DNA from: Candidatus Thiodiazotropha sp. LNASS1
GTDB lineage: Bacteria > Pseudomonadota > Gammaproteobacteria > Chromatiales > Chromatiaceae
NCBI RefSeq assembly: GCF_964212655.1
Contig: NZ_OZ156465.1
Coordinates: 3,844,001 to 3,908,000 of the forward strand
Reading direction: 5' to 3'
DNA: 64,000 bases
The notes under the pieces are model-generated. The model had not been told where the DNA came from. It ran no database searches and saw only the letters and a list, made by a program, of their open reading frames with translations. A program made the translations under genes and the position numbers. Numbering within the stretch: position 1 is the stretch's first letter; each line of letters starts with the position of its first letter. Below are positions 20,188 to 36,090 of the stretch, one piece after another.

Positions 20188-20976
20188 ATGACGGGTACTA
20201 AACCAAAGCTCGCAGTCCACAAATTCAGCTCCTGCGACGGCTGCCAGCTGGCGCTGCTGAATTTGGGTGAGCCACTGCTGCTGCTTCCGCAGTTGGTGGA
20301 CATTGTTCATTTTGCCGAGGCAGGTCCCAGTGACCCGGTAGCCCAGGCCGATATTGCACTGGTGGAGGGGAGTGTCTCCACGCCTGAGGATATCGAGCGT
20401 ATCCGGCAAGTGCGGGAGCACAGCGGCTTGCTGATCTCCATAGGCGCCTGTGCCACCGCAGGCGGGTTACAGGCACTGGCCAATTTTACTGACCGTGACA
20501 GCTGGATTGCGGCGGTCTATGAGCAACCCGACTACATCGACGCCTTGCAACACTCCAATCCCATCTCCCACTACGTCAAGGTCGATTTCGAGATCCCCGG
20601 CTGTCCGGTCAATTCCCGTCAGGTAGTGGCGGCCTTGCGCGACCTGCTGAGCGGCGTCAAACCCCGCCCGGAGCGCCAGTCGGTCTGTATGGAATGCAAG
20701 CGTAAGGGGTTGGTCTGTACCATGGTCAGCAAGGGAGAGCCCTGCATGGGACCGGTGACAGTGGCCGGATGCGGCGCACTTTGTCCATCCATGGGTCGTG
20801 GTTGCTACAGCTGTTACGGACCCCTCGAACAGATCAATGATCGTTCCTTGGCTGAGCGTTTTAACCAGCTTGGCCTCGACCGGGCAGCCGTCGTACGACG
20901 GTTCCATTTTATTGCCAATCATGCCCCTGCCTTTAAACAGGCCGGAGAGCGGCTGAAAGAAACGACCAATGAATGA
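20188..20976 (+). CDS. hydD: [NiFe] hydrogenase (group 3b-type) small (delta) subunit
   Basis: This 262-residue small subunit lacks a Tat signal, so it is cytoplasmic. The proximal cluster ligands are visible: FSSCDGCQLALL at the N-terminus, the GACA segment SIGACATAGG, and CPVNSRQV. Downstream Cys motifs (CMECKRKGLVC, CGALCPSMGRGCYSCYGP) indicate the further cluster ligands typical of group 3. It conducts electrons from the Ni-Fe site to the beta/gamma subunits. Its end overlaps the large-subunit start (20969) by 8 nt. Confidence 0.93.
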   Translation: MTGTKPKLAVHKFSSCDGCQLALLNLGEPLLLLPQLVDIVHFAEAGPSDPVAQADIALVEGSVSTPEDIERIRQVREHSGLLISIGACATAGGLQALANFTDRDSWIAAVYEQPDYIDALQHSNPISHYVKVDFEIPGCPVNSRQVVAALRDLLSGVKPRPERQSVCMECKRKGLVCTMVSKGEPCMGPVTVAGCGALCPSMGRGCYSCYGPLEQINDRSLAERFNQLGLDRAAVVRRFHFIANHAPAFKQAGERLKETTNE

Positions 20977-22270
20977 CACAACACGTGATATCCACATCCA
21001 TGTGCCGGTCTTGACCCGGGTCGAGGGTGAAGGCGCCCTGAAGATCGATGTGGTGGACGGCGCCATCCAGAATCTGGCCCTGCACATCTATGAACCGCCG
21101 CGGTTATTCGAGAAATTTGTCGAAGACTACGAGTGCAATCAAGTCATCGACATGGTGGCGCGCATCTGCGGCATCTGTCCGGTGGCCTACCAGATGAGTG
21201 CGGTGCAGGCCTTTGAGAGCCTGTTCGGCTTTCAGCCCCCGGACTGGGTGAGGGATATGCGCCGGGCGATGTACTGCGGTGAATGGCTGCAGAGCCATGC
21301 CCTGCATATCCATCTGCTGTCAGCCCCCGATTTTCTCGGTTTCGATTCGGCTATCGCCATGGCGGCCGACTATCCGGATGCGGTGCGGCGGGGTCTTGAA
21401 CTGCAGAGCCTCGGCAACGATCTGATTGCGCTTTTCGGTGGTCGTTCGGTGCATCCCGTCGGGGTTCGTGTCGGAGGATTCTATCGGGCGCCGAGAGAGG
21501 ATGAAGTAGCAACCCTACTAAGACGCCTGGAGGCGGCACTGCCGGCAGCCGAGGCCCTGGTAGGCTGGACTGCCGGGCTCGAATTTCCGGACGACGAACA
21601 GGCCTTCACCAGTGTTGCTATGAGTCACCCCGATGAGTACGCCATCAATCAGGGCAACCTGATCTCGGGACAGGGCCTGGAGACCGAGATAACCTTCTAT
21701 GAAAGCTATTTTCAGGAGCACCAGTCCCCCCACTCCACCGCCCTCCATTCGACGCTGGATGAACGCCCCTATCTGGTCGGTCCCCTGGCCCGGCTCAACC
21801 TCAACTTCCATCAGCTGCCCAAGCCGGTGCGCAAGATCATGGACGGGTGCGGTATCCCGTTTCCCAGTCACAACATGTTCCACAGCATTGTGGCGCGGGC
21901 CATCGAGCTTCACCTGGCGGTTTATGAGGCGATCCGGCTGCTGCAAAATTACCATCCGCCCGATGAACCCTATATCCCGCTCAAACCCCGGGAGGGTAAC
22001 GCATTCGGTTGCACCGAAGCGCCGCGCGGTATCCTCTGGCACCGCTACGACGTGGACGACCGGGGAATGGTGCGTCATGCCCGCATCGTGCCGCCCACCA
22101 GCCAGAATCAAGGGCGGATCGAAGAGGATATCCGCCTTTCACTGGAGCGCTTCGGTCTGGACAATCCGGATGACGCGCTGCGCCTGAGGGCCGAACAGGT
22201 GATTCGCAATTACGATCCCTGTATCTCTTGCGCCACACATTTTCTCAGACTCCACGTTCATCGCCGATGA
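20969..22270 (+). CDS. hydA: [NiFe] hydrogenase (group 3b-type) large (alpha) subunit
   Basis: This 433-residue catalytic subunit carries both Ni-binding motifs: L1 in ARICGICPVAYQMSA and L2 in NYDPCISCATHF. The short tail after the L2 His (FLRLHVHRR) is the peptide normally removed by the maturation protease, whose gene is next and overlaps the stop. It matches group 3b bidirectional NADP-linked hydrogenases (sulfhydrogenases), which evolve H2 or, in some archaea, reduce sulfur. No hypABCDEF accessory genes are in the window, so they must be elsewhere. Confidence 0.95.
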   Translation: MNDTTRDIHIHVPVLTRVEGEGALKIDVVDGAIQNLALHIYEPPRLFEKFVEDYECNQVIDMVARICGICPVAYQMSAVQAFESLFGFQPPDWVRDMRRAMYCGEWLQSHALHIHLLSAPDFLGFDSAIAMAADYPDAVRRGLELQSLGNDLIALFGGRSVHPVGVRVGGFYRAPREDEVATLLRRLEAALPAAEALVGWTAGLEFPDDEQAFTSVAMSHPDEYAINQGNLISGQGLETEITFYESYFQEHQSPHSTALHSTLDERPYLVGPLARLNLNFHQLPKPVRKIMDGCGIPFPSHNMFHSIVARAIELHLAVYEAIRLLQNYHPPDEPYIPLKPREGNAFGCTEAPRGILWHRYDVDDRGMVRHARIVPPTSQNQGRIEEDIRLSLERFGLDNPDDALRLRAEQVIRNYDPCISCATHFLRLHVHRR

Positions 22271-22826: not shown

Positions 22827-25211
22827 GTGATGATGAAGCCTAAAAAGATCGGGCGGTTTCAGGTTGGAGAACAACTGGGTGTTGGCAATCAGGGTACGGT
22901 CTATCTCTGTCACGACAGCCAGCTGCAACGCAAGGTTGCGATTAAACTGCTCAACAAGTCGCTGCAGGAATCATCGTTTCTGGATGAAGCCCGGGCGGCT
23001 AGTAAGCTCCAGCATGCCAATATCGTCTCCATCTACGAGGCCGGTGAGCACCAGCAGATACCCTACCTGGTGTTTGAGTATGCACAAGGCGAACTACTGA
23101 AAGACCTGATCAATGGTGAGCCTTTGGAGGTGGGTGATGTACTGCGGATCTTTCAGGGCCTGCTGGAAGGCATGGGCCAGGCCCACAAGGCAGGTATAGT
23201 CCATCGTGACCTGAAGCCGGCGAACATCATTATCAGCGAAGATAAGGTTCCGAAGATAATGGACTTCGGCATCGCCCGCCTTTTATCGGAGGCAAAGGGC
23301 CCGGATCGTCAACTAATCGGTACACCCAGATACCTGGCGCCGGAGTACATCCAAAGAGGCGAAGTCGGGCCGCAGGCTGATGTTTTTGCCCTTGGTTTGA
23401 TTCTGGATGAGATGTTGACCGGAATGCCTGTGTTTAGCGGTCACAATCAGCAGATCGTTATCGATGCCATTCTCAAGCTGGAGGTGAAGCCTCCATCCCA
23501 GTTCAATCCGGCAGTGGATGAGAAGCTCGACCGCTTCATCCTCAAGTCCCTGGAAAAAGATCCTGTCTTACGTTACAGCGATGCAATCGAGATGTTGCAG
23601 GCCTTCAATGAGATGCGTGGCGTGACAGGGGAAAAACTGAGTGTCGAAGAAGATGCGAGCGGTACGGTGGAGTTCCTGCTCCGGCGGATGAAAAGGAAGA
23701 GCGACTTTCCCGCATTGTCGCAGTCGGTGCGCAGCATCAATGCCATGGCCGACGCCAGCAATAAGGATGTCAATCAGATGGCGGGCGTCATCGTCAAGGA
23801 TTTTGCATTGACGAACAAGATCCTGAAAGTGGTCAACTCCGCCTACTATGGACGCTTCTCCGGAAGAATCGGAACCGTATCGCGGGCAGTCGTGGTTTTG
23901 GGTACACAAGCTATCCGCTCGTTGGCGGCCTCTTTGATTTTTTTCGAGCATATCGAAAACAAGCAGCAGGCCGAACACCTCAGGGAGCTGGTCTCTTCGG
24001 CGATGTTCCGTGCAACCCTGGCACACAAGGTGGCGGATGAAATCGATCAGAAGGAGGCCGAGGCCTATTTTCTTACCGGTTTGTTGAACGACCTGGGTAA
24101 GTTGCTGGTGGCATTCTATCTACCTGATGAGTCACAGGAGATTGATCGGCTGATCAAGGTCGATGGCAAGGAGCCGGTCGCGGCGCAGCACAGCGTACTG
24201 GGTGTCAGTTTCGAAAAGATCGGGATTGAGATCGCCGGACAGTGGAATTTTCCCAAGTCACTCATCGATAGTATGAAGCATTGGCAGGGGGATCATAAAC
24301 CGGTCAACCGATTGGAGCGCAGACGTCTGGTCACCGCATTTGCTGATGATGCCATGGCGGTGATGATTGAATCGGGGCTCGACAGCAAATCCGCAATGGA
24401 AAGCCTGGCTAAAAAATATGATAAGGGGCTCAACATCACGAACAAGCAGATCTCTCGATTCGCCACTCGGTCGATGGAAGAGTTTCAAGAAGTGGCGAAG
24501 GCGATATCGAGCGATATATCAGATCAATTCATACAAAAACTCACCTCAAAAACCGATGATCTGCAATCCCATAAGGGGGTTGAAAAAAGTAAACCTAAAG
24601 CTATGGACAAGGACGGTTTGTCCGAAACACAGATTCTGGATGAAGAGGGTACCCAGACAGTCCAATCGACAGCCTCCGAGGATAATCCTCCAGCAACTCC
24701 GGAAGATGCGGAAACCCTGCTGATGGATGGCCTGCAGGAGGTGACGGGCATGCTGGTGGGAAACCACAGTGTATCCGAAATCTTCAACGTGGTGCTTGAA
24801 ACCATGTACCGCGCGGTCGGCTTTCAAAGAGTCGTGTTGGCGCTACTGGATCGCAAGCGGGGGGAGATGGTGGGCAGATTGGGTTTCGGCAGTTCCGCCG
24901 ATGAGTTTGTCGAGCTGTTCCACTTTCCCACGGTATATAGCGTGGATGTCTTTCATGGGGCATTGAAGAATGCCGTGGATGTCTATATCGCAGATACCAC
25001 CGAAGGGAAGATTCAGGCCGATATTCCCGAATGGTACAAGCAGATCTCCAGTGCGGGATCATTTCTGCTCTTTCCCCTGGTGGTTAAAAACAGAGCGGTC
25101 GGTTTGATCTATGCGGATCATTCCAGTCCGCACGGTCTGGAGATCGATAAAAAGAGACTCAATCTGCTGAAGTCTCTCAGAAATCAGATTGTATTGGCGG
25201 TGAAATCCTAG
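22827..25211 (+). CDS. Ser/Thr protein kinase - HDOD - GAF fusion protein
   Basis: This 794-residue cytoplasmic signalling protein has three modules. Residues about 8-265 form a Hanks-type kinase: glycine loop LGVGNQGTVY, catalytic Lys in VAIKLL, HRDLKPANI, DFG in IMDFGIAR, and APEY. Residues about 285-490 form an HDOD domain (FPALSQSVRSINAMA, LTNKILKVVNSAYYG, AVVVLGTQAIRSLAAS), a degenerate HD fold that usually acts as a scaffold in second-messenger or motility control. After a polar linker, about residues 640-790 form a GAF domain (EIFNVVLETMYRAVGFQRVVLALL). Start is GTG 22827 or ATG 22830/22833; GGGAG at 22823-22827 favours an ATG. Confidence 0.92.
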   Translation: MMMKPKKIGRFQVGEQLGVGNQGTVYLCHDSQLQRKVAIKLLNKSLQESSFLDEARAASKLQHANIVSIYEAGEHQQIPYLVFEYAQGELLKDLINGEPLEVGDVLRIFQGLLEGMGQAHKAGIVHRDLKPANIIISEDKVPKIMDFGIARLLSEAKGPDRQLIGTPRYLAPEYIQRGEVGPQADVFALGLILDEMLTGMPVFSGHNQQIVIDAILKLEVKPPSQFNPAVDEKLDRFILKSLEKDPVLRYSDAIEMLQAFNEMRGVTGEKLSVEEDASGTVEFLLRRMKRKSDFPALSQSVRSINAMADASNKDVNQMAGVIVKDFALTNKILKVVNSAYYGRFSGRIGTVSRAVVVLGTQAIRSLAASLIFFEHIENKQQAEHLRELVSSAMFRATLAHKVADEIDQKEAEAYFLTGLLNDLGKLLVAFYLPDESQEIDRLIKVDGKEPVAAQHSVLGVSFEKIGIEIAGQWNFPKSLIDSMKHWQGDHKPVNRLERRRLVTAFADDAMAVMIESGLDSKSAMESLAKKYDKGLNITNKQISRFATRSMEEFQEVAKAISSDISDQFIQKLTSKTDDLQSHKGVEKSKPKAMDKDGLSETQILDEEGTQTVQSTASEDNPPATPEDAETLLMDGLQEVTGMLVGNHSVSEIFNVVLETMYRAVGFQRVVLALLDRKRGEMVGRLGFGSSADEFVELFHFPTVYSVDVFHGALKNAVDVYIADTTEGKIQADIPEWYKQISSAGSFLLFPLVVKNRAVGLIYADHSSPHGLEIDKKRLNLLKSLRNQIVLAVKS

Positions 25212-25323
25212 GGATTGTAAGATCTGTCCAATAAACATCAATCGCCGTCAATAATCAAAAACAGCTACGGCTCGGCGTATTGGATTTGTGTTAACAGGCC
25301 TTAGGATTTGAAGCTACCGGAAT

Positions 25324-26049
25324 ATGTCTGGTGCTTGGATTTCAGTCTCACAACTGGAAGCCGTAATGTTGGGATTCAACGCCATATTTAGCATAGTGAA
25401 AGCATATAGCACTAAAGATTCGCTGATCTTGTTTCTGACATGCATCATGCTAATGTCTCCGGGACATATCAGTGCATGTGGTTGGTGGGGTGACGGTGAA
25501 GTCAATAGGGAGGATAACGAAGTAATAACGACACCGGATGGAAGGGTGTTGCCCCACATAGTAAACCAACACTCATCAAAACTACCGGGACGGATGGGTT
25601 ACGGCATTGCAATACCTGATCCGGGCCGTGCCATTCCTTATCTGCAGGCGACCATGGGACGCCCGCTCAATCGTATTGCGGAGCTGAGCGCGTTCGGGTT
25701 TAAAACGGTCATCGATATCGGTACGTCTGAAAAGAGTGCTCGTCTGCACCGAAAGGAGACCGAAGTGCTTGGTATGCGCTATATAAGCATACCGGTAGAC
25801 GGCAACCTGCCGAGCCGGGAGCAGGTTGAGGATTTCACTCAACATGTTGTAGATGCCAGCCATGGAATGCTGTTGGTCTATGCCCCAAGATCAGAACTGC
25901 TTGGGACTATGTGGGCGGCCTACCGGATGAATCTTGGCGCACCTGCCGGCTTCGCCATTAAGGAAGGCAGAGAACTCGGTATGCTGCCTGATCAAGAGAT
26001 TACTCTTCGTAATCGTTATGGATCAAAAAAAGACCCTGAAACGCCCTAG
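25324..26049 (+). CDS. Exported dual-specificity-phosphatase-like protein, probably inactive
   Basis: This 241-residue protein has a hydrophobic export signal (SLILFLTCIMLMSPGHISAC) followed by CGWWGDGE, possibly a lipoprotein anchor. The C-terminal half resembles tyrosine/dual-specificity phosphatase-like proteins (FKTVIDIGTSE, GMRYISIPVDGNLPSREQVEDF, LGTMWAAYRMNLG). In active relatives the strand before LGxxWAAYRM holds HCxxxxR; here it reads VYAPRSELLG, so the Cys is Tyr and the Arg is Glu. I infer a non-catalytic, periplasmic, perhaps anion- or phosphate-binding role. It is convergent with the molybdoenzyme operon and its last codons form that operon's terminator. Confidence 0.7.
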   Translation: MSGAWISVSQLEAVMLGFNAIFSIVKAYSTKDSLILFLTCIMLMSPGHISACGWWGDGEVNREDNEVITTPDGRVLPHIVNQHSSKLPGRMGYGIAIPDPGRAIPYLQATMGRPLNRIAELSAFGFKTVIDIGTSEKSARLHRKETEVLGMRYISIPVDGNLPSREQVEDFTQHVVDASHGMLLVYAPRSELLGTMWAAYRMNLGAPAGFAIKEGRELGMLPDQEITLRNRYGSKKDPETP

Positions 26050-26119: not shown

Positions 26120-26773
26120 CTAGGCGGCTGTTTCGGTTACTAGACTCTGCTCTTCGAGCTTAAGGAAACTGTTTGTCAACTTAGCCAGTTCCCGGTAAAA
26201 AGGAATACCTGCCTGCGCTATCACCGCATCACAGAACTTGGGTATCCAACCCAGAATATGCTGTTGCAAGAACATGCGCTGAATTGACAGGCAGTACTCG
26301 GCACTGATGCGATCCATCTCTATCCACTTGTCGGCTTCCCAATCGGCCAGCTTCTGCATGAACTCAAGTTCAACGCTGATATGATCAGGCAGCCCCGTGA
26401 ACTGGGAAGCGTAATCAAGTCCGGTTGTCTCGATAAACTTCTTCACTTCAACTGTTCTGGCGCCCCATAAACCACCTGAGTCACCATCCACTTCAGTGAA
26501 AATCGATTCATGGGCGGAAATGTGCCGTCCAGGACCTATGAACAGGCGCGAAAATTCAAGCGCAAGTTGATCGGCTATGGTTGATACGGGTTCGCTGTAA
26601 AAAGAGCTCCCCATTTCCAGCTCCATGTCCGAGAAGGCCCCCGCCAAGCGGGGCCCCCTCAGTTCGTTGATGAAGGCTTCGCTGGGCTCCTGCCGAAAGA
26701 CCAGGGTCAATAACCCATACATGTCACTTCTTGTTTTGGCGTTATCGGCCATTTTATTCCAGTCGGTTCCCAT
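26120..26773 (-). CDS. TorD/DmsD-family molybdoenzyme chaperone
   Basis: This 217-residue all-helical cytoplasmic protein is of the TorD family (MYGLLTLVFRQEPSEAFINELRG, LALEFSRLFIGPGRHISAHESIF with the conserved PxxSxHxS-like region, and DHISVELEFMQKLADWE with the ExEFM signature). Such chaperones bind the Tat signal of a molybdoenzyme and help load the molybdopterin cofactor before export. It lies 30 bp after the molybdoenzyme gene, its obvious client. A start further in (MADNAKTRSDMYG, ATG 26752) is possible. Confidence 0.9.
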   Translation of the reverse strand: MGTDWNKMADNAKTRSDMYGLLTLVFRQEPSEAFINELRGPRLAGAFSDMELEMGSSFYSEPVSTIADQLALEFSRLFIGPGRHISAHESIFTEVDGDSGGLWGARTVEVKKFIETTGLDYASQFTGLPDHISVELEFMQKLADWEADKWIEMDRISAEYCLSIQRMFLQQHILGWIPKFCDAVIAQAGIPFYRELAKLTNSFLKLEEQSLVTETAA

Positions 26774-26802
26774 TTCAGCTCTCCTCTTTCAGTAGACTCA
26801 AT

Positions 26803-29328
26803 TTATGCCTTGGCTACCCTGACGACGGTATCCATCCACCGCTGTGTGCCGCTGATAGGATCTGATGAGTTGGGGATGATGGTATTGGGATGAGTACCAT
26901 GCTTTTTCCACCATATATTCTTCACATCCGGATCAGCCGCGGCGCCTCCCGGTGTGGGAGAACGCTTGCCCGAACCATAGACCCCCGAGTGCTTGCGACC
27001 CAGGTGATGGGATATGGCGATCACACCCGGAATGATGCCTTCGGTAACATAGGCTGTGGTGGTGATCTCGCCCAGGCTGTTATAGACTCTGATCTTGTCG
27101 CCATTCTTAATACCGCGCGCTTCAGCCGTCTTGGTATTGATCCAGCCGGGATTGTCGTGCTTGATCTCGGTGAGCCACTTGCAGTGCGCGGTCCTTGAAT
27201 GGGTATGTACCGCCACCTTGTAGGTGGTGAGATTCAGCTCATCATCCGCCATCTTCTGGTGTTCGGGAATCGGCGTATAGGATGGGAATGCCGGAAAACC
27301 CTTGTTGGCGAAATTATCTGAATAGAAGTCCAGATAACCTGCCTTGACGAACTTGGTATTGGGGGGATAGGCCAGGTAAGCCGTGCCATCGATATTTTGC
27401 GCGACATAGGCCTTTTTAGCGCCTTTCGTACCCAGATACCCTTGACGCTTGGCTTCGGCTTCACTGTCGACACCTGCCTTTTTCCAGTTCCAGTAGACAC
27501 CGGTCTTCTCATCGAGAATCACGCCATCGCCGGACACGTCCACCTTGGTCTCATAGAAGCCGTAGTTGGGTTTGGCCTTCGGATCGTGCCATACGCCTTG
27601 CTTCTTCATATACTCGAAGCCTCCGGCCTCCCGCACACCGGGTGTCATCTCACAGGACTGACGTACGAAGTCTTCCTTGCTTGAGTATGCCAGTTCAAAG
27701 CCCATGCGCTTGGCCAGCTCAGGCCAGACATCGCCCTGGCAACGTGATTCTCCCAGGGGTTTAACCAACGGCTGCCGGATATAGAACTCGGCGATCTGGT
27801 TTGCCGACACCATGTCCTCCCAGTCCCAGCGCTCCAGGTATGTGACGTCGGGTAGGATCAAGTCTGCATACTGAGATGATTCGTCATAGACGATGGTTGT
27901 TGAAATAAGGAAGGGGATAATACTTTCATCCCGCATAATCGACTGCAGTTCCTTGTTGTCGCCATTGATGAATCCCGGGTTGTAGCAACTCCACCAGTAG
28001 ACCTTCGGTCGACCCGCCTGGCCATCCTTGATCATCGGTAGCACCTGGTGGCTTACATGATGAGTCGGGTAGGCCGCTTCACCCGGAAACCCGTCCTTGA
28101 CGTGGAGCGTTTTGTGGACCTTCGCCTTGGGGGAGGAGGGATGTTTCCAGCCTGCTCCAACACCCATGACACGTCCACCCGGACGATCGAGATTGTTGGT
28201 GATCGCTGACAACAGCATTGCCGCCCGCTCCTGATCCGCGCCGTGATAGTGCATTACGGTTCCACGGTAGGTGACCAGGCAGGCTGATTTGGCTTTTGCG
28301 AACCCGCGAGCGATCTTGCGTATGGTATCGGCTGGCACACCACTCTGTTTCTCTGCAAACTCGGGGGTGTACTTAGCGACATTTTTCTTCACCGCTGCAA
28401 TCTTCTCATCGATAGTCGCTTTGTAGTTTTCGCTGACACGCATGAATTTGAAGTGATCCTTCCTGTAGAGTTTCTCGTTCATGATGACATTACACATGGC
28501 CAGCATCACCAGTCCGTCATGTCCCACTTTGATCGGTACCCACTGATCGGCCTTGGCCGCCGTGTTTGTCAGGCGCACGTCGAATACGTATAGGGGTACG
28601 CCACGATCAACCTTGGCCCGGATCAGGCGCTGGGCGGTCGGAATATGGTTGGTATGGGTCTCAAACTGATTGCTGCCGAAAATCACCACGTAATCGGTGT
28701 TGTCATAATCCCAGTTGTCATACATGCCCCCCCACAGACTCTCCTGTCCTACCCATTTTGCCGCCTCACAGACAGAGGTGTGATTACCGATGGTGCCAGT
28801 GCCGTAGGCCTGCATGAAGTCGTACATGGTGGCAGCCTGGGACGCCTTGTGTCTGCCGTACTGATACATGAACAGTTCAGGGGTACCCGCATCGCGCAGG
28901 GGTTTCAGCTTGGATACGATCAGGTCAAGGGCCTCATCCCAGGAAATACGTTTCCATTTGTGCTCGCCACGTTTGCCTGCGCGTTTCATCGGGTGCAGGA
29001 TCCGGTCGGGGAAGTAGACCTGGTTGATGCCCGCCTGTCCCTTGGCACAGAGTTTGCCGAGTGTGCGGATGGAATCGGGATGGCCTTCGAGCTTTACCAG
29101 GCGTCCGTCCTCTACATAACCGATCATGGAGTCTCGGGTTACACACTGCCAGCAGGCCGTGGGAATTGCCTGTCTCTCCTTACCTGTTGTGGGTGAAAAA
29201 TCCTTGCCGCCCGCCTGCAGTTTAAGCGATCCGGCAAATGCACTCTGACTGCAGCCCAATCCGGCTGCCAATGCGCAACCGCTGCCTGCGGTCAGTTTCA
29301 TGAAATCACGACGATTTAACTTTTTCAT
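26803..29328 (-). CDS. Periplasmic DMSO-reductase-family molybdopterin oxidoreductase, catalytic subunit
   Basis: This 841-residue Mo-bisMGD enzyme has a Tat signal (RRDFMK at 6-11). The N-terminal iron-sulfur site has Cys59, Cys62 and Cys94 (CWQC...GKLC), but position 66, normally the third Cys, is Asp (CVTRDSM). Cys187 in GNHTSVCEAA is the likely Mo ligand. MGD-binding segments such as YVVIFGSNQFETHTNH and DYVVIFGSN, and a C-terminal MopB domain (LTTYKVAVHTHSRTAHC, ARGIKNGDKIRVYNSLGEITTTAYV), are present. It resembles polysulfide/thiosulfate/selenate-type reductases rather than NapA or NarG. The substrate is unknown. It is co-transcribed with the ferredoxin subunit, the 12-haem cytochrome and a TorD-type chaperone. 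Confidence 0.9.
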   Translation of the reverse strand: MKKLNRRDFMKLTAGSGCALAAGLGCSQSAFAGSLKLQAGGKDFSPTTGKERQAIPTACWQCVTRDSMIGYVEDGRLVKLEGHPDSIRTLGKLCAKGQAGINQVYFPDRILHPMKRAGKRGEHKWKRISWDEALDLIVSKLKPLRDAGTPELFMYQYGRHKASQAATMYDFMQAYGTGTIGNHTSVCEAAKWVGQESLWGGMYDNWDYDNTDYVVIFGSNQFETHTNHIPTAQRLIRAKVDRGVPLYVFDVRLTNTAAKADQWVPIKVGHDGLVMLAMCNVIMNEKLYRKDHFKFMRVSENYKATIDEKIAAVKKNVAKYTPEFAEKQSGVPADTIRKIARGFAKAKSACLVTYRGTVMHYHGADQERAAMLLSAITNNLDRPGGRVMGVGAGWKHPSSPKAKVHKTLHVKDGFPGEAAYPTHHVSHQVLPMIKDGQAGRPKVYWWSCYNPGFINGDNKELQSIMRDESIIPFLISTTIVYDESSQYADLILPDVTYLERWDWEDMVSANQIAEFYIRQPLVKPLGESRCQGDVWPELAKRMGFELAYSSKEDFVRQSCEMTPGVREAGGFEYMKKQGVWHDPKAKPNYGFYETKVDVSGDGVILDEKTGVYWNWKKAGVDSEAEAKRQGYLGTKGAKKAYVAQNIDGTAYLAYPPNTKFVKAGYLDFYSDNFANKGFPAFPSYTPIPEHQKMADDELNLTTYKVAVHTHSRTAHCKWLTEIKHDNPGWINTKTAEARGIKNGDKIRVYNSLGEITTTAYVTEGIIPGVIAISHHLGRKHSGVYGSGKRSPTPGGAAADPDVKNIWWKKHGTHPNTIIPNSSDPISGTQRWMDTVVRVAKA

Positions 29329-29361
29329 ATCAATTCCTCTCTTAATACAGGCTCTCAGGGT

Positions 29362-30213
29362 CTATGGAATCTGGTCCACAAAGTGGTCCAGTTTGCCCTT
29401 CTTTCGCTGTGTATAGAGGGTTTTCAACATGTTGTCGGGATCGATGTAGAACACATGAGGAATGGTTCCCTCTTCCGGAAGCAGAACGTTGTCGGCCTTG
29501 GCCAGGTTGTGCTCTTTTACAAGCTTGGAGACTTCGCTGTTCGGGTCGTTGAGGTCACCGAAAATTCGTGCACGTCCCTGGCAAGTGTTGACACAGGATG
29601 GTTCGACCCCGTTATCGACACGATGAGCACACATATCGCATTTGTCCGCAGCCTGCTTTGTCGGATCAGCGCCCGCTTTGACAAAGGGATCAAATGAACG
29701 GACGCCGTAAGGGCAGGCATCAATACATTTGCCGCAGCCGATACATTTTTCCTTGTCTATCAGGATCAAGCCATCAGGACGTTTATAGGTCGCACCCGTG
29801 CGATAACGTATGGTTTTGCCATCAGCCGTCTTGAATTTGGCCCGTTTGCCTGGAAATTCCGGACAGGCTTTGACACAAGGTGGAACACCATCTTTCTCAT
29901 TGCCCTCGCAGTGATTGCACATCAGGGGTAAGAATTCCTTCTTGGTATTTGGAAATGTACCCATGGTTTTCTCTTGGACGACTGCCCGGAAACGGCCCAA
30001 AGAGACATTGTTTTCAGATTTGCAGGCCACGGTACAGGCCCTGCAGCCTATGCAGCGCCTGAGGTCCATCACCATCGCCCAACGGGGTGCTTTTGATTGA
30101 GCCGCTTCAAGACTCACCTTCGGTGTCGCCAATGCCGCAGCGCCTATCGCGGCTGTGCCTACACCACTCAGAAATTTGCGACGGTTGACGTCTGGTGTTT
30201 TGTTATCACTCAT
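29362..30213 (-). CDS. Tat-exported four-cluster ferredoxin subunit (DmsB/PsrB/NrfC-like)
   Basis: This 283-residue electron-transfer subunit has a twin-arginine signal NRRKFLSG. Four [4Fe-4S] motifs follow: CIGCRACTVACK, CNHCEGNEKDGVPPCVKAC, CIGCGKCIDACPYG and CDMCAHRVDNGVEPSC. It would carry electrons between the molybdoenzyme and the multihaem cytochrome in the periplasm. I chose ATG 30213, with AGGAGA at 30221-30226, over an in-frame start at 30240. It overlaps the cytochrome stop by 8 nt, so translation is coupled. Confidence 0.93.
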   Translation of the reverse strand: MSDNKTPDVNRRKFLSGVGTAAIGAAALATPKVSLEAAQSKAPRWAMVMDLRRCIGCRACTVACKSENNVSLGRFRAVVQEKTMGTFPNTKKEFLPLMCNHCEGNEKDGVPPCVKACPEFPGKRAKFKTADGKTIRYRTGATYKRPDGLILIDKEKCIGCGKCIDACPYGVRSFDPFVKAGADPTKQAADKCDMCAHRVDNGVEPSCVNTCQGRARIFGDLNDPNSEVSKLVKEHNLAKADNVLLPEEGTIPHVFYIDPDNMLKTLYTQRKKGKLDHFVDQIP

Positions 30214-31795
30214 ATCGTATTCTCCTACGCATCTCCTCACCCTCCGCTACAGTTGATTGTGTGGTTTTTGCAAGATCATCACTACTTCTCGTCTCTTCCA
30301 ATAGCTCAATGGTGTCTTCAAAATTGCCGAATGCACCGTCGAGAATGTTTACTGCGTACTTTTTGTTATGTACGCCGTTACCAACGCGTACAATATTGAG
30401 AAGATCATTTCCCTCGGCTAGCATTTGCTCTGCTTGGGTCAATCTCTCATTGTCCAATCTATCCTTCAGTTCGGCGAAGAGATTCCTGGCTTCCTTCTCA
30501 ACCTCTTCCACGTCCGCCACCTCATTGGTGAGTAATTCGTTCCAGTCACTGAGCATTTTTCTGTGTTGTTCTGTATGGCAGGCAGCACAGGTATCGCCTG
30601 AGGCGGTTCTCACGTCATGCCCTTTACTCAGTGTCTTCTTGAGATGACAGCCCATGCAGTTTGTGTTGACCTCGTACATCAGATGCGGGTCACCCGAGAT
30701 ATCCTCATTAACAGGAGCGCCTGAAAGCAGCAGCTTTTGGTACTTGTGCTGATCGACGTGACAGAGCTGACAATCATTGCGTACGAAATCAAGATGGTCA
30801 GTTCTGTTCTTATGTTCGATCACGCTGTGACAATCGAAGCAGTCAGCCTTGTTCGGCACATGCTTGTCATGCATGAGTTCGCGGTCGCCTGCAGTTGCCA
30901 GTAACGTCTGACTTCTGTTATGGCAGGTAAGACAGCCATTCGAGACGACATTTCCGGTATTAATCTCTCCCTCCCCGCTTACCATTTCGAAGTGGCAACT
31001 CTCACAGGCAACGCCTGATTCCTGTATTGTCTGATGAGTGATCGGTTTTTTGGTGCTGGCAGGGTCGCCTGCCTGTAACTGGCTTTGAAGCGATTTTGTC
31101 GGGATCGTGTGGCAGATATCGCAACGGGAGACCCCTTGATTGAAATCGATGGCCGGCTTGTTGACAAAGGTGATTTTCTTAATGTCCCCATTGGCCATCT
31201 CCGCTTTGTCAAGTGTGGGCTTGTCCAGTTTAAGGTGACAAAGGAAACAGATGTCTTCAGGCACCTCGAAGTGCTTTTTCTCCGTTGTCTTGAAATGGCA
31301 TGTATCGCAGGTGATCTGGTGGCCATCGAGAGCCTTATCACTAAAGTGAACCTGGTGTTTGAAACGGACCCGATCAGTAAACTGTATCTCCACCGGCGCC
31401 AGTTTCTCACGGTCGTGACAGCCGGACTGTAAACAAGCGCCATCCTTGATCACAGGGCGTATGGGCAGTGGAGCATCCCGGTCATAAAGGTATGCTGCAA
31501 GGTGGCGTAATCCTTCGTACTTGGCCTTCATGGAATGCTTCTCGCCTGGTAAAAAGTGGCAATCGACACACTCCGCCTGCATGCCTTCCGGATTATTGCT
31601 CTTGTAGTGATAGTTTGACTTCCAGGCTTCATACTGCTCTGTCATGGTGTGGCAGCTGCCCCCACAAAAAGACGACTGCGACGTGTAATACTCAAAGCCG
31701 CCCCAGGCGGTTAAGAGAAAAAGAACTGTTCCCATGAAGATCAGTACCATCAGTCGCCAGGTAACTCTTAATTCAATTCCAGCGCCACTATTCAT
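30206..31795 (-). CDS. Membrane-anchored 12-haem c-type cytochrome
   Basis: This 529-residue protein has an N-terminal membrane helix (LMVLIFMGTVLFLLTAWGGFEYY) and a periplasmic domain with ten CxxCH motifs (CVDCH, CDTCH, CFLCH, CDICH, CESCH, CLTCH, CFDCH, CQLCH, CMGCH, CAACH). An initial CGGSCH (CX3CH) and a CLQSGCH (CX4CH) make up to twelve haems. The first haem region (SSFCGGSCHTM) resembles NapC/NirT quinol dehydrogenases. The last 110 residues have no haem sites and look like coiled coil. No NrfD/PsrC-like membrane subunit is encoded, so this cytochrome probably exchanges electrons with the quinone pool. It is the first gene of the operon, behind the sigma-54 promoter. Confidence 0.9.
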   Translation of the reverse strand: MNSGAGIELRVTWRLMVLIFMGTVLFLLTAWGGFEYYTSQSSFCGGSCHTMTEQYEAWKSNYHYKSNNPEGMQAECVDCHFLPGEKHSMKAKYEGLRHLAAYLYDRDAPLPIRPVIKDGACLQSGCHDREKLAPVEIQFTDRVRFKHQVHFSDKALDGHQITCDTCHFKTTEKKHFEVPEDICFLCHLKLDKPTLDKAEMANGDIKKITFVNKPAIDFNQGVSRCDICHTIPTKSLQSQLQAGDPASTKKPITHQTIQESGVACESCHFEMVSGEGEINTGNVVSNGCLTCHNRSQTLLATAGDRELMHDKHVPNKADCFDCHSVIEHKNRTDHLDFVRNDCQLCHVDQHKYQKLLLSGAPVNEDISGDPHLMYEVNTNCMGCHLKKTLSKGHDVRTASGDTCAACHTEQHRKMLSDWNELLTNEVADVEEVEKEARNLFAELKDRLDNERLTQAEQMLAEGNDLLNIVRVGNGVHNKKYAVNILDGAFGNFEDTIELLEETRSSDDLAKTTQSTVAEGEEMRRRIRYE

Positions 31796-31864
31796 TGCCT
31801 TTGTTTTCCCCCAGTCGGGCAGACTGTGTTCACTCGGCTTTGTGTTTATATGTTTCGGAACATC

Positions 31865-31880
31865 AGCAAGAGTCGTTCCA
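31865..31880 (-). promoter_or_regulatory. Sigma-54 (-24/-12) promoter for the cytochrome-molybdoenzyme operon
   Basis: Read on the minus strand the site is TGGAACGACTCTTGCT. It matches the consensus TGGCACGNNNNTTGCW at every fixed position except one (A for C at the fourth), with exact GG-to-GC spacing. Transcription would start near 31854, leaving a leader of about 60 nt before the cytochrome ATG. The adjacent divergent operon encodes an NtrC-type activator, the protein class that such promoters require. Confidence 0.75.
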
Positions 31881-32030
31881 GGTTATTATCTGTTTGAAAA
31901 TGTGGAAAAATATAAAGTAGAAAAAATATAAATCTGGATTTAGTTACCTGTTGGTTACTTTTCGCTGAATTGTGTAACCATTGTGGTTTGTTCTTTAATT
32001 ACATGCTGTTAGCAAAGCACCGCCTGACAG

Positions 32031-32052
32031 TATGTTACCGATAGGTAACATA
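32031..32052. promoter_or_regulatory. Perfect palindrome, candidate enhancer for the NtrC-type regulator
   Basis: Arms TATGTTACC (32031-32039) and GGTAACATA (32044-32052) are separated by 4 nt. Related GTTACC/GGTTAC/GTAACC half-sites recur at about 31942-31980. The palindrome lies about 180 bp upstream of the predicted sigma-54 start at 31854, a normal distance for an enhancer. It could serve the divergent sensor operon too. Confidence 0.55.
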
Positions 32053-32341
32053 CCGAGATGTGGAGAAGCACTCCGGAGAAGGCTTCTTCACTGCCCATGA
32101 AAAAGCGGGTACAAACAGGTGGTCTGGATGCGGACAGTAGGCGTATGCAACTAAAAAACAACAACTTCCTGATTAAGTAATGGATTCTGCTATCCTTGCA
32201 GAATAGCAACTATAAAAGTACGGGAAAGTGTGGCCATTGAAGGTCTTTGTTCGCTGCAGGGAGCGTATGACATTTCGTAATGCAGCTACCGTGACATAAC
32301 TTAGCAGTATCCCTGAGAAGTTGTTTTAGTGAGGATCCCAA

Positions 32342-33211
32342 GTGCGATTGACCTTTTTAATATTACTTTTCTGGATTACTCCAATTTATGCAGCCAATAC
32401 GGAATCACCTATCCGTTTCGGTTTAACGGCTGTTGTGCCCACTGAAAATCTAAGATTTCTGGATCAATGGAGTCAATACCTGGAGCAAAAAACAGGTCGC
32501 AAGGTCGAGTTTGTGCAGAGAAAGTCTTATCGGGAAGTAATGGATCTGTTGGATACGGGTGTTATCGAATTCGCTTGGATCTGCGGTTATCCTTACATCC
32601 AGGCAAGAGAAACGGAATCACTTCAGCTCCTGACAGTGCCTATTTACCGGGGAGCACCACGTTATCACTCTTATATAATTGTCCATCATAGCAGTCCCTA
32701 TAAACGCTTCAGCGACCTGAGAGGGAAAAGTTTCGCCTTCTCTGATCCTGATTCGAATTCAGGTTTCCTCTATCCACTGGCCTTGATTGCAAAAAAAGGA
32801 GAGAAGCCTGAGACTTTTTTCCGCCAGACATTCTTTACCTTCAATCACGCTGAGACGGTACAAGCCGTTTCCGAGCAGGTTGCAGATGCTGGAGCCGTAG
32901 ACTCGTATATATGGGAGTACATTGCCGTCTTCAAGCCGGATATTACTGAAAAAACCCGAATAATAAAGAAATCGCCAAGCTTTGGTTTTCCACCTGTTGT
33001 ATACCGTCTAGGTATAGATACCGACATAGTAAAACAAATGAAACATACACTTGAAAATATGCATCAGGATTTAACCGGACAGGAACTACTCGACCGGCTC
33101 AAACTGGATGGCTTCGGTGATTATTCTGATTCGTTGTTCAATGAAATCCGCGCTTTGGAAAATACAGTTCAAAGCGCCGACCCCAGGTACTCCGTGGTAC
33201 AAACAGATTAA
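32342..33211 (+). CDS. PhnD-like periplasmic binding protein (sensor accessory)
   Basis: This 289-residue protein has a signal peptide (FLILLFWITPIYAANT) and the phosphate/phosphonate-binding fold: IRFGLTAVVPTENLRFLDQWSQYL, VEFVQRKSYREVMDLL, FAWICGYPYI, and SDLRGKSFAFSDPDSNSGFLYP. Family members near two-component genes (for example ArxX, and the sensor part of TtrS) bind the ligand and signal to the kinase. No ABC transporter genes accompany it, supporting a sensory role. It begins with GTG and ends 15 bp before the kinase gene. Confidence 0.88.
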   Translation: MRLTFLILLFWITPIYAANTESPIRFGLTAVVPTENLRFLDQWSQYLEQKTGRKVEFVQRKSYREVMDLLDTGVIEFAWICGYPYIQARETESLQLLTVPIYRGAPRYHSYIIVHHSSPYKRFSDLRGKSFAFSDPDSNSGFLYPLALIAKKGEKPETFFRQTFFTFNHAETVQAVSEQVADAGAVDSYIWEYIAVFKPDITEKTRIIKKSPSFGFPPVVYRLGIDTDIVKQMKHTLENMHQDLTGQELLDRLKLDGFGDYSDSLFNEIRALENTVQSADPRYSVVQTD

Positions 33212-33226
33212 TTATTCAGTATACAA

Positions 33227-34702
33227 ATGCCCAAGATTAATCCGAAATCCTGGCCATTGGCGATAAAGTTATCCCTCACCATAACGGCCGTTGTTACATG
33301 CGTCGGGTTTTTGATCGGAATACTCATGGTTGTACAGGACTGGAAACGATTTCAAAATGATTTGGGTGAAAAAGCGCTGCTGCTATCTGAATCCATTTCA
33401 ATCACTGCGCCAAAGGCTATGCTGCGAAAAGACTATTGGTCTCTTTACCTCAGTCTCAAGAATATGGCATCCAAGGGTCCTGGAGCCAGAAGCGAACACG
33501 AAATCATAGATGCGATGATATTGGATGCTGAAGGCCTGGTTCAGGCCCATCTTCATCCCGCGAAGCATCCGATAGGTCTTGTCTTTGCGCCAGATAATGA
33601 AACCGAGAAAGCTATAACCAGCCAGGCGATGGCCGCGAGAACTCCGACCGTGTTGAGCAACGGCGGTTTTTCCAAAGATGGATTTCAGGAAGGTGTCGTA
33701 CCGCTGTTTTCAGATCAAAAATACCTTGGTGTGGTTCGGGTTCGTCTCTCTGTCGTCAGTCTATTCGAAAAGGCGAAATCCACAGCCGTAATCGTTCTTT
33801 TGTCGATATTGCTCTTCGTCTTTATCGGAAGTCTGCTGGGTACCATAGTATCCAGGCGGGTTGTCGGGCCTTTGACCGCAATCACACACGGGCTTGAGGC
33901 GGTAGGACGTGGAGAGATGACCGACTTTTCACCAATACCGGTGAAAGAAGGAGATGAAATAGGAAGGCTTAGTGTGACCTTCAATCAGATCATGTCTGAA
34001 CTGGCGGAAAAAAAGATGCTCGAAGAGGAGATCGCAATGAGCGAGAAACTGGTCGCCTTGGGAAGAATTACCGCCGGTGTGGCGCATGAGGTAAATAATC
34101 CACTTGCAGGGCTTTTAAACTGTATAGATACGCTGCGTCAGCATCCAAACGACAAGGAGTTGATCGATCGTTACCTGCCGGTTATTGACCAGGGACTGCA
34201 TCGGATTAAAGATATTGTTCATAACCTTCTCGTTGGACTCAAGAACGAGGATAGTGATGAAATGATAAACATTCAACAGGTCGACAAGCTTCATGATTTG
34301 ATACTGGCGGAAATAGGTGAAAGAGATATCAAAATATACTGGAACAATACAGCAGATAGAGATACCTGTATTCCAGGAAAGACCGAACAGATAATCTGTA
34401 ATTTACTGAAAAATGCTGTTGAAATCATTCCCGAAAACGGAACCATTGATTTCAACATGTATCAAGAGGGAAGGCGTCTCGTCATCAAAGTCAGTGATAA
34501 TGGCCCCGGAGTTGCCTCAAATATAAGAAACCAACTATTCGATCCTTTCTTTACAACAAAGCCCAACGGCACAGGATTGGGACTGTGGGTTGTCTACCGT
34601 CTGGTTCAGAATATGCAAGGTATCATCGAGGTAGAGAGCGAGCTGGGAAAAGGTACGACTTTCCTCATCGAACTACCGGTAATCAACAGGCAGGCAGCCT
34701 GA
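33227..34702 (+). CDS. Membrane sensor histidine kinase
   Basis: This 491-residue kinase has two membrane helices (about 16-36 and 186-206) flanking a periplasmic sensor of about 150 residues. A HAMP domain follows (VSRRVVGPLTAITHGLEAVGRGEM), then the phosphoacceptor His287 in AGVAHEVNNPL. ATPase motifs are CNLLKNAVEIIPENG (N box), VSDNGPGVA (G1), FFTTKPNGTGLGLWVV (F/G2). The H-box and catalytic domain are of the NtrB/ZraS type that partners NtrC-family regulators. The stop shares one base with the regulator start. Confidence 0.95.
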   Translation: MPKINPKSWPLAIKLSLTITAVVTCVGFLIGILMVVQDWKRFQNDLGEKALLLSESISITAPKAMLRKDYWSLYLSLKNMASKGPGARSEHEIIDAMILDAEGLVQAHLHPAKHPIGLVFAPDNETEKAITSQAMAARTPTVLSNGGFSKDGFQEGVVPLFSDQKYLGVVRVRLSVVSLFEKAKSTAVIVLLSILLFVFIGSLLGTIVSRRVVGPLTAITHGLEAVGRGEMTDFSPIPVKEGDEIGRLSVTFNQIMSELAEKKMLEEEIAMSEKLVALGRITAGVAHEVNNPLAGLLNCIDTLRQHPNDKELIDRYLPVIDQGLHRIKDIVHNLLVGLKNEDSDEMINIQQVDKLHDLILAEIGERDIKIYWNNTADRDTCIPGKTEQIICNLLKNAVEIIPENGTIDFNMYQEGRRLVIKVSDNGPGVASNIRNQLFDPFFTTKPNGTGLGLWVVYRLVQNMQGIIEVESELGKGTTFLIELPVINRQAA

Positions 34703-36090
34703 TGCAGAATAGTATGGATCAGACGATGGAGGCGGATAGCTACAAAGACTTGTGCCTGTTGTTGGTTGAAGATGATGAGATCATGCAAATATCGCTTGTT
34801 GACAGGCTACGCATAGAATCAATACCTGTGCGTGCGGTGAGTGATACTGCGAGTGCAAGAAAAGAGCTGGAAAAAGGAGATATAGATCTCGTCGTAACCG
34901 ATATCCGCCTACCGGATGGTACAGGGATCGAACTCTTTACAGATATCTCAAACAATTATCCAGGCATACCTGTCATCCTCATGACGGCTTATGGCGATAT
35001 ATCGGACGCAGTCGCTACGGTTAAAGCCGGCGCTTTGGATTATCTAACAAAACCTTTTGACATTAATGAGTTCATCAAGAAGGTGGTGCACCAGCTCTCA
35101 TGTATTTCCGACATTCAGTTAACGGCCAACAACCCTGGCACTGATAATGATTACTTCAAACCAGGTAGTGGTTGTTTGGGAAAAAGCAACGCCATGCGAA
35201 AGATCGAGAGACTTGTGGCGCGTCTCAGAGAGAGTGACAGTTCAATATTGCTTACCGGAGAGTCCGGGGTTGGCAAAGAGGTCGTTGCAAACCTGATACA
35301 CAACAACAGTCTGAGGTCACAGGGTCCCATGGTCAGTGTGAACTGTGCCGCACTACCTGCCACACTGATCGAAAGTGAGCTCTTTGGCCATGAAAAGGGG
35401 GCTTTTACCGGAGCGACACAACAACGAAAAGGACGTTTTGAGCAGGCTCAAGGCGGCACCATCTTTCTTGATGAGATCGCGGAAGTATCGTCCGATATAC
35501 AGGTAAAACTACTGAGAGTGCTGCAGGAGAGGGAGTTTGAACGTGTTGGCGGATCGGTTTCAATTCCACTTGATGTGAGGGTGATTGCCGCAACTCAGGC
35601 CAATCTCGATGTCGCTATTGAAAAAAATGAATTCAGGTCGGATCTTTACTGGCGCCTCAATGTAATCAATATCGACATTCCACCACTGCGGCAACGTAGG
35701 GAGGACATAGTCTATCTCGCCAGACAATTCGTCAGCCAGCTGGGGCGATGTAAAAAGGGGGGCATCAAAGGTCTGTCGAAGGAGGCTGAACTCTCTCTTC
35801 AATCCATGTCATTCCCTGGGAATGTTCGTGAACTAAAGAATGTCATTGAAAGAGCAGTCGCCCTTTGCGATGGGCCTTGGATAAGCCAAAGCGATCTTTC
35901 GATCACGGACAGCAATGCCCACACTCACGATACAACTACACTAAAAGAGACTATCGAAGAGGCTGAACGGAAGTCAATAACCAGAGCGCTAGCGGAAAAT
36001 AAAGGCAAAATCAATCAGACAGCGGATTCCTTGGGTATCTCGCGCAAAAACCTGTGGGAGAAGATGAAACGCTACGAAATAGATAAGTAG
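34702..36090 (+). CDS. NtrC-family sigma-54-dependent response regulator
   Basis: This 462-residue protein has a receiver domain (acidic pocket LLVEDDE, phosphoacceptor Asp67 in VVTDIRLPDG, Lys in DYLTKPFD), a central AAA+ domain (Walker A GESGVGKE, sigma-54 loop GAFTGA, Walker B GGTIFLDEI) and a C-terminal Fis-type helix-turn-helix (KINQTADSLGISRKNLWEKM). It activates sigma-54 promoters when phosphorylated. The start at 34702 overlaps the kinase TGA (TGATG). The strong sigma-54 site at 31865-31880 in front of the molybdoenzyme operon is the obvious target. Confidence 0.95.
   Translation: MQNSMDQTMEADSYKDLCLLLVEDDEIMQISLVDRLRIESIPVRAVSDTASARKELEKGDIDLVVTDIRLPDGTGIELFTDISNNYPGIPVILMTAYGDISDAVATVKAGALDYLTKPFDINEFIKKVVHQLSCISDIQLTANNPGTDNDYFKPGSGCLGKSNAMRKIERLVARLRESDSSILLTGESGVGKEVVANLIHNNSLRSQGPMVSVNCAALPATLIESELFGHEKGAFTGATQQRKGRFEQAQGGTIFLDEIAEVSSDIQVKLLRVLQEREFERVGGSVSIPLDVRVIAATQANLDVAIEKNEFRSDLYWRLNVINIDIPPLRQRREDIVYLARQFVSQLGRCKKGGIKGLSKEAELSLQSMSFPGNVRELKNVIERAVALCDGPWISQSDLSITDSNAHTHDTTTLKETIEEAERKSITRALAENKGKINQTADSLGISRKNLWEKMKRYEIDK

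Follow-up and report, generated by a model that had tools for sequence, protein, structure and literature searches.

A molybdoenzyme operon with a NapC-like dodecahaem cytochrome and an AioX-type sensor in Candidatus Thiodiazotropha: a candidate arsenite-responsive arsenic oxidoreductase

The stretch of DNA analysed here (64,000 nucleotides, hereafter the window) corresponds to bases 3844001-3908000 of the complete 4.75-Mb genome of Candidatus Thiodiazotropha sp. LNASS1. It contains a module made of seven genes at 26120-36090 and of a recurrent eighth gene at 25324-26049. A multihaem cytochrome, a ferredoxin, a molybdoenzyme catalytic subunit (MopB) and a TorD chaperone are encoded on the minus strand, and a PhnD-like protein, a histidine kinase and an NtrC-type regulator are encoded divergently on the plus strand. 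The composition and conservation of this gene set, the kinship and binding pocket of the PhnD-like protein and the cis-elements are supported by the sequence data. We read the module as a periplasmic arsenic oxidoreductase that is induced by arsenite and probably works as an arsenite oxidase; a NapC-like dodecahaem cytochrome would replace the NrfD subunit. We give this reading about an even chance of being right.

The minus-strand genes encode a TorD-like molybdoenzyme chaperone of 217 residues (26120-26773; PF02613, 4.8e-22), a catalytic MopB subunit of 841 residues carrying a twin-arginine translocation (Tat) signal (26803-29328; PF00384, PF01568 and PF04879, together with alignments and trees), a Tat-type ferredoxin with four [4Fe-4S] motifs (29362-30213; sequence and NCBIfam) and a membrane-anchored 12-haem cytochrome of 529 residues (30206-31795; PF03264, 5.6e-18, PF14537 and motif counts). 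The ferredoxin probably starts at 30213, taking its relatives as a guide, rather than at the GTG at 30240 where the open reading frame (ORF) call opens. On the plus strand lie the AioX-like periplasmic sensor X (32342-33211, 289 residues; PF12974, PhnD-like, PDB matches and pocket), the HAMP histidine kinase S (33227-34702, 491 residues; PF00512, PF02518, PF00672) and the sigma-54 response regulator R, which has receiver, AAA+ and Fis helix-turn-helix domains (PF00072, PF00158, PF02954) and whose start is probably at 34702 (34702-36090). An earlier note, made from the DNA letters alone, had described these seven genes as one structural operon facing away from a three-part sensor. Pfam, NCBIfam and ORF calls confirmed the domains of all seven, and the arrangement stood as described. 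The same note had proposed a genome search for this neighbourhood, and the same set was indeed found again in other genomes; therefore, it is not a product of chance. The eighth gene and the cis-elements go beyond what had been noted.

Of the 22 genomes examined in the genus, 18 have the MopB gene, at 78-100% identity. Its nearest named relatives are those of lucinid clam symbionts, with 100% identity to a symbiont of Ctena orbiculata and 99% to Candidatus Thiodiazotropha endolucinida. A genome-contig scan with peptide patterns from P0001 confirmed 114 loci, the best 80 of which were named (L numbers below); near relatives are over-represented in this selection, and many contigs are short. Forty-six of the 80 loci are of the cytochrome type, 26 carry NrfD (NrfD type) and 8 have neither within the contig. 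Ferredoxin and TorD accompany the cytochrome in 46/46 loci, and X, S and R are within reach in 36/46. When at least 9 kb were available upstream, X-S-R was found in 23 of 25 cytochrome-type loci, L080 and L082 being the exceptions; it was found in 6/26 NrfD-type and 2/8 other loci. Judged by their record titles, carriers include Rhodospirillales, Kiloniellales, Hyphomicrobiales, Desulfobacterales and Nitrospirota, with many alphaproteobacterial metagenome-assembled genomes. The named carrier strains, Sedimenticola hydrogenitrophicus SB48 (L110) and Aromatoleum toluclasticum ATCC 700605 (L109), are both of the NrfD type. Loci L093, L099 and L102 contain two tandem MopB genes of the family, one NrfD and an AioX-side sensor trio.

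Among solved structures, X matched AioX best (6esk and 6esv, E-values of 5e-61 and 6e-61, respectively), followed by ArrX (6x6b, 1e-42), and this kinship is closer than that to PtxB (2.8e-15) and PhnD (7.4e-14). The AioX pocket consists of Tyr88, Cys106, Tyr131, Ser161, Ser163, His192 and Asp210 in AioX numbering (excerpts of PMC5908839), and all seven residues are found in X, as Y63, C81, Y108, S138, S140, H169 and D187. The pocket was compared across 47 sequences, namely X of the window, 44 locus sensors longer than 220 residues, and the sensors of L143 (on a Sulfuricella plasmid, with the genes in arx order) and of L119, a distant relative outside the 80 loci. Five positions were constant, the second serine was conserved in 45/47 and the aspartate in 44/47. 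The pocket cysteine occurs in none of seven TtrS-like sensors, all scoring under the TtrS cut-off, each of which keeps at most one of the seven residues (that of L146 was aligned only in part). In addition, the loop TAVV of X is hydrophobic, of the AioX/ArxX type and not of the ArrX type; an ArrX-like loop is present in the sensors of L082 and L091 (Desulfobacterota), L107 (Nitrospirota) and L114 (Aminicenantes). Judged from its sequence, X is a member of the AioX/ArxX/ArrX subfamily of arsenic-oxyanion sensors. The earlier note had left the substrate open among sulfur, selenium, arsenic and halogen oxyanions; this wide choice did not hold, given the subfamily of the sensor, and it is also countered by the different pocket of the TtrS-like sensors and by an operator that fits the AioR consensus (see below).

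In the careful tree of 53 sensors, 45 proteobacterial sequences, including X, AioX and the sensor of L143, formed one clade (100/100), and ArrX and the sensors of L114, L082/L091 and L107 fell outside it. The sensor of L048 was the sister of AioX (100/100), though its MopB is 80% identical to that of the window and its operon is of the cytochrome type. The sensors of L110 and L111, whose operons are of the NrfD type, grouped with that of L143. Therefore, the sensors that go with this one enzyme family come from different arsenite-sensor lineages. In isothermal titration calorimetry, arsenite was bound by both AioX and ArxX, and no binding was seen with the nine further oxyanions assayed, antimonite, selenate, tetrathionate and thiosulphate among them (excerpts of PMC5908839).

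The region between the divergent genes contains a sigma-54 promoter candidate, TGGAACGACTCTTGCT (31865-31880, minus strand), 70 bp upstream of the cytochrome gene, which scored 0.93 with our own weighting. Upstream of it sits the palindromic operator GTTACCTATCGGTAAC (32034-32049, no strand; GTT-N10-AAC), a candidate site for the NtrC-type regulator, so that GTTACC-N4-GGTAAC is about 150 bp away from the promoter. A second inverted repeat with wider spacing, GTTAC-N15-GTAAC, is found at 31954-31978 (no strand). The AioR consensus is GTT-N10-AAC, with GTTCGGATTTCCGAAC as footprinted site (excerpts of PMC5335332); hence the structural genes are preceded by the combination of sigma-54 site and GTT-N10-AAC that characterises AioXSR/ArxXSR-type control.

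The operator was counted in 35 regions, namely L143 and those where 80-1000 bp separate X from a divergently oriented first structural gene. GTTAC-N6-GTAAC occurred in 57 copies in 32/35 regions, as compared to 0.03 regions expected from shuffles; it was absent from L069, L110 (where a copy lies just beyond the region cut) and L143. No copy with any other spacing from N0 to N13 was found in the 35 regions. GTT-N10-AAC was present in 33/35 regions (5.1 expected), and the strict published AioR motif in only 8/35. Wider pairs (N15, 3; N26, 22; N27, 1) we take to be pairs across adjacent half-sites. A sigma-54 score, calculated with our own weights, of at least 0.88 was obtained in 31/61 upstream regions, against a mean of 0.6 and a maximum of 3 in shuffles and 1/61 on the reverse strand, and sigma-70 scans gave no excess over shuffles. 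Palindrome and sigma-54 site are both present in L119, L109, L110 and L111, and both missing in L078, L081, L083, L085, L088 and L092, NrfD-type loci with no X-S-R in reach; in L105, the single GTT-N10-AAC match is dissimilar and the sigma-54 scores do not exceed 0.75. In the genome of the window, GTTAC-N6-GTAAC occurs at 8 places versus 10 for the reversed control, therefore no more often than by chance; only the copy in the window is GTTACC-N4-GGTAAC. AioXSR-like control of the operon is, at the level of sequence, well supported.

MopB did not exceed the cut-off of any of the 25 NCBIfam models shown out of 27 matched. The best scores were obtained with PhsA (338.6 bits, cut-off 694) and DmsA/YnfE (280.7, cut-off 777.7); those with DMSO type II (197, cut-off 985), ArrA (170.7, cut-off 1600), TtrA (112.6, cut-off 1750) and AioA (27.1, cut-off 359) were lower. 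The top PDB match was 2vpw, named thiosulfate reductase. In a quick tree of 71 sequences MopB was placed in a 49-member clade with SH-aLRT support of 100. In a careful tree of 44 sequences, the bootstrap of which was not quite settled, it belonged to a 30-member clade (100/100), apart from the ArxA/ArrA clade (98/94), from four PhsA-type sequences and from DmsA. The sequences were chosen by hand: 44 of the 71 were kept, 9 long-branch or off-family ones dropped and 18 thinned. ArrA over its curated cut-off, the arx-order cluster, PhsA and DmsA served as references, together with a TtrA-like sequence below its cut-off in the 71-sequence tree only; L130 was under its curated cut-off. ArxA was assigned by gene order (L143) and tree neighbours instead of by annotation, and the motif GRGWG of L143, which we take to be typical of ArxA, supports this label. 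On the basis of scores and trees, simple membership in Arx, Arr, Aio, Ttr or Phs was rejected.

The note's view that the catalytic subunit resembles neither ArxA nor TtrA was thus supported and can be extended to ArrA. It had also held that nesting inside a clade of known substrate would speak against a new system: MopB does not nest with ArxA/ArrA, PhsA or DmsA, in trees whose references do not comprise true PsrA, SrdA, SerA, PcrA and AnrA. That the system is undescribed agrees with the full-text literature, in which, most subscription papers being outside its reach, no account of the clade or of the operon was found. Seemingly novel lineages of the MopB superfamily are mentioned, with no function named, in the excerpts of PMC10100899.

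The molybdenum ligand candidate of MopB is Cys187, in the motif NHTSVCE, which is missing from one long-branched family member, L031. The Cys-ligated MopB branch includes sulfur, selenium and arsenic enzymes (excerpts of PMC7331816). The iron-sulfur motif reads CX2CX3D..C: Cys59, Cys62 and Cys94 do not vary in 33 aligned sequences, and the third cluster position is occupied by Asp66 or its equivalent in the cytochrome-type Proteobacteria, L106, L107, L114, L116, L117, L115, L076 and the KH32C group, and by Cys in the NrfD-type sequences and L077, L080, L082 and L091. Arg159 (YGR) is invariant in 33/33 aligned family members, L031 not being among them, and presumably is the equivalent of Arg165 in Shewanella ArrA. 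Its GR dipeptide aligns with that of ArrA, ArxA and TtrA-like sequences and is missing at this position in the three PhsA-type sequences shown, DmsA, L134 and L114_18757.

The cytochrome contains ten CXXCH sites, one CX3CH (CGGSCH, the first) and one CX4CH (CLQSGCH). Therefore, the 12 haems initially proposed are reached only if the two unusual sites are included, the canonical ones being 10. The first site, CGGSCH with TM after it, is inside a NapC/NirT-type N-terminus (PF03264 at residues 14-101, 65.7 bits versus a cut-off of 24.1), so the NapC-like first haem region suggested by the note is real. Among the relatives, 45 cytochrome ORFs were called, and 36 of them show the 10/1/1 pattern exactly; the nine deviating ones are the partial L042 and L059, L069 (10/2/0), and L077, L080, L082, L091 (twice) and L115, with 11 CXXCH. 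As the note had stated, the usual NrfD subunit is not beside the operon: none was found by Pfam among nine window proteins (22827-26049 and 26120-36090). None was detected in the cytochrome-type loci by phmmer with two NrfD queries at 1e-8, a scan which distant NrfD proteins can escape. In fact, a Pfam check revealed one NrfD near the cytochrome gene of L080, with which homologues in L082, L091 and L115 cluster, and so the cytochrome and NrfD types are not wholly exclusive. The ferredoxin, in which four groups of four cysteines can be read, has TtrB (194 bits, cut-off 416), DsrO, ArrB and NrfC as top NCBIfam models, with every score under its cut-off.

Two types of arsenite oxidase, Aio and Arx, are counted in the excerpts of PMC6549141. 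The window operon shares with Arx (arxB2ABCD and arxXSR) the divergent X-S-R, the sigma-54 activator and promoter, the Tat-exported MopB, the ferredoxin, TorD and a GTT-N10-AAC-type operator, one such site being present in L143. It differs from Arx in the separate clade of MopB, in the CX2CX3D motif and in the gene order Cyt-Fer-MopB-TorD, the scanned proteins including neither the second ferredoxin ArxB2 nor the NrfD-type ArxC, in place of which there is the 12-haem cytochrome. With Aio it has in common the types of sensor and regulator, the operator consensus and the sigma-54 promoter, whereas MopB is far below the AioA cut-off. Aio has a Rieske small subunit, and no Rieske family member was found by Pfam among the nine scanned window proteins. 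Arr is similar in its Cys-ligated periplasmic MopB, ArrB-like ferredoxin, GR dipeptide before the molybdenum ligand and X of the same subfamily, but the window MopB is only 23.8% identical to the ArrA sequence L123 and, as said, is in a separate clade. The best matches of MopB point to PsrA/PhsA, the score being, however, half the PhsA cut-off and the GR dipeptide being missing in the three PhsA-type sequences shown. Ttr differs in the TtrA and TtrB scores and in the sensor pocket. A parallel outside the cytochrome type is an uncharacterised cluster on plasmid pAZKH of Azoarcus sp. KH32C, which has a 38.7% identical MopB of the same larger clade, divergent X-S-R, palindrome and sigma-54 site and adjoins arsA and ACR3, but contains an NrfD anchor instead of the cytochrome. 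A candidate for alternative arsenite oxidation in Thioalkalivibrio is not the same system, being a SoeABC-like enzyme with no Tat signal.

From these data we infer the ligand of X, the phosphotransfer, the binding of R, the substrate, the direction of catalysis and the electron path as follows. Arsenite would bind X through cysteine 81 and the six other pocket residues, X would signal to S, and S would phosphorylate R. R would then bind GTTACC-N4-GGTAAC and activate the sigma-54 promoter, leading to transcription of cyt-fer-mopB-torD. TorD would mature MopB, which is predicted to be exported by Tat. Together with the four-cluster ferredoxin, MopB would most likely oxidise arsenite to arsenate (or a thio-arsenic species). 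Electrons might flow from MopB to the ferredoxin and to the dodecahaem cytochrome, which would take the place of the usual NrfD (ArxC) subunit, and from there to the quinone pool or other periplasmic cytochromes. Rather more tentatively, and with a chance that we put somewhat below even, the clade would represent a third family of arsenite oxidases, distinct in phylogeny from Aio and Arx, in Alpha- and Gammaproteobacteria including clam symbionts, with a 12-haem NapC-like cytochrome (CX3CH first haem), an Asp-for-Cys cluster and an exported CGWWG partner. In this view, the relatives whose sensors are of the ArrX type may be the corresponding reductases. If this were true, surveys of aioA, arxA and arrA would overlook part of arsenic cycling, lucinid symbioses would gain an arsenic side, and bacteria might have in this operon a third route of arsenic respiration.

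Arsenic is favoured over an open list of substrates because the AioX-type sensor and the AioR-type operator narrow the choice. The alignment of the GR dipeptide of MopB with that of ArrA and ArxA also speaks for it, as do, weakly, the ars genes beside L042, L043, L070, L077 and L119. NapC-type anchors usually oxidise quinol, that is, they usually serve reductases, and therefore a reductase would suit the cytochrome better than an oxidase. By analogy with Shewanella, where CymA passes quinol electrons to Arr, electrons could run from quinol through the NapC/NrfH-type N-terminus of the cytochrome and the ferredoxin to MopB acting as a terminal arsenate reductase. The alignment of PDB ArrA with MopB residues 55-798 and the sensors of L082, L091, L107 and L114, which have an ArrX-type loop and do not group with AioX and the sensor of L143, are in line with such a direction. 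For the window we consider it unlikely, since its X has the AioX/ArxX-type loop and its regulator is NtrC-type, unlike the CitB-like ArrR of Chrysiogenes (excerpts of PMC5908839), and since Thiodiazotropha symbionts are described as autotrophs that oxidise sulfur and use oxygen and nitrate as electron acceptors (excerpts of PMC11171427). This sulfur metabolism is compatible with a sulfur-oxyanion or polysulfide enzyme that recruited a relative of the arsenic-type sensor and changed its ligand, as are the best NCBIfam models of MopB (PhsA) and of the ferredoxin (TtrB). Nevertheless, every AioX pocket residue is kept while TtrS-like sensors differ, the operator is of the AioR type, the family occurs with sensors of more than one arsenite-sensor lineage, and AioX and ArxX failed to bind tetrathionate and thiosulphate in the assays cited above, so we regard this explanation as quite improbable. 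We see a similarly small chance that arsenite is the inducer whereas the enzyme acts on thioarsenite or thioarsenate, which arise from arsenic and sulfide where habitats are sulfidic: many carriers are from sulfur-cycle lineages, the Cys ligand is that of the sulfur/selenium/arsenic branch (PMC7331816, excerpts) and PhsA is the best model, but no observation separates a thioarsenic from a plain arsenite substrate. Finally, antimony or a chemically similar metalloid as the true substrate appears very improbable. Arsenic enzymes can act on antimony, AioAB having been named an Sb(III) oxidase, yet NaoABC, which has been described as an Sb(III) oxidase, groups closest to NapA (both from excerpts of PMC11521347) and antimonite was not bound by AioX, ArxX or ArrX (excerpts of PMC5908839).

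Several observations weigh against an arsenite-induced arsenite oxidase. In BLAST with MopB, the ArxA/ArrA sequences (116-228 bits) scored below PhsA (245) and L131 (258). The pocket alone does not set the choice of oxyanion, considering that ArrX, with the same residues, binds arsenate (excerpts of PMC5908839). Since the full X-S-R was not seen in 20 of the 26 loci of the NrfD type, many of which are on short contigs, the family may hold other functions. Region and locus counts are not independent because close relatives are included (11/35 regions have Thiodiazotropha in their title). L048 and L064 have the sigma-54 site and no GTT-N10-AAC within 420 bp, and L086, with X-S-R, has neither element over this distance. 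Upstream of their first gene, L093, L099 and L102 show no operator or sigma-54 site in spite of the X-S-R genes in these loci. Moreover, when the fetched flanks were scanned with eight local queries, ars genes adjoined only 4/80 loci (L042, L043, L070 and L077; ACR3, ArsA, ArsD, ArsC, ArsJ or ArsJ-type GAPDH), two of which, L042 and L043, are closely related Ctena symbionts. In the genome of the window ArsJ is 430 and 440 kb from the operon, and no ars genes are beside it. ArsJ occurs in 20/22 genomes of the genus, but only two of these (G019 and G043) have it on the MopB contig at a distance below 10 kb. Linkage to ars genes alone would not carry the claim. The distant relative L119 also adjoins ars genes.

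The genome of the window encodes a second, ArrA-like MopB at 4279092-4281641 (L121, L126), the score of which on the ArrA model is 1129 bits against a cut-off of 1600. Encoded with it are a nine-haem protein (PF11783), a cytochrome b561 (PF01292), a ferredoxin and TorD, and the 19 kb inspected there did not reveal any X-S-R. L127 (G440) combines, over about 13 kb, a MopB with an AioA-type Rieske 3Fe-4S domain (PF18465), an AioX-like sensor and an ArrA/ArxA-like MopB.

The recurrent eighth gene (25324-26049, plus strand), convergent with torD, encodes an exported protein that is a possible partner of the operon products. Its predicted mature form starts with ACGWWGDGE, followed by a PTP-like domain with Ala, as seen by eye, at the position of the catalytic cysteine; the Pfam PTP-NADK score is 27.0 bits, exactly the cut-off. 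Twenty matches were found in loci from L039 on, 18 of the same type and the last two (L110, L111) with Sel1 repeats. The N-terminus ACGWWG(D/E) is shared with the Sel1-repeat exported proteins of L097, L108, L110 and L111, whose C-terminal domains differ from that of the window protein. Elsewhere in the genome, the DNA of the motif was matched once, in no long open frame. Near the module, a few kb upstream, the window contains genes similar to the small and large subunits of NiFe hydrogenase (20188-22270; PF01058, PF00374), and another molybdopterin oxidoreductase (PF00384, 222.8 bits) is encoded on the minus strand at about 60613-62085.

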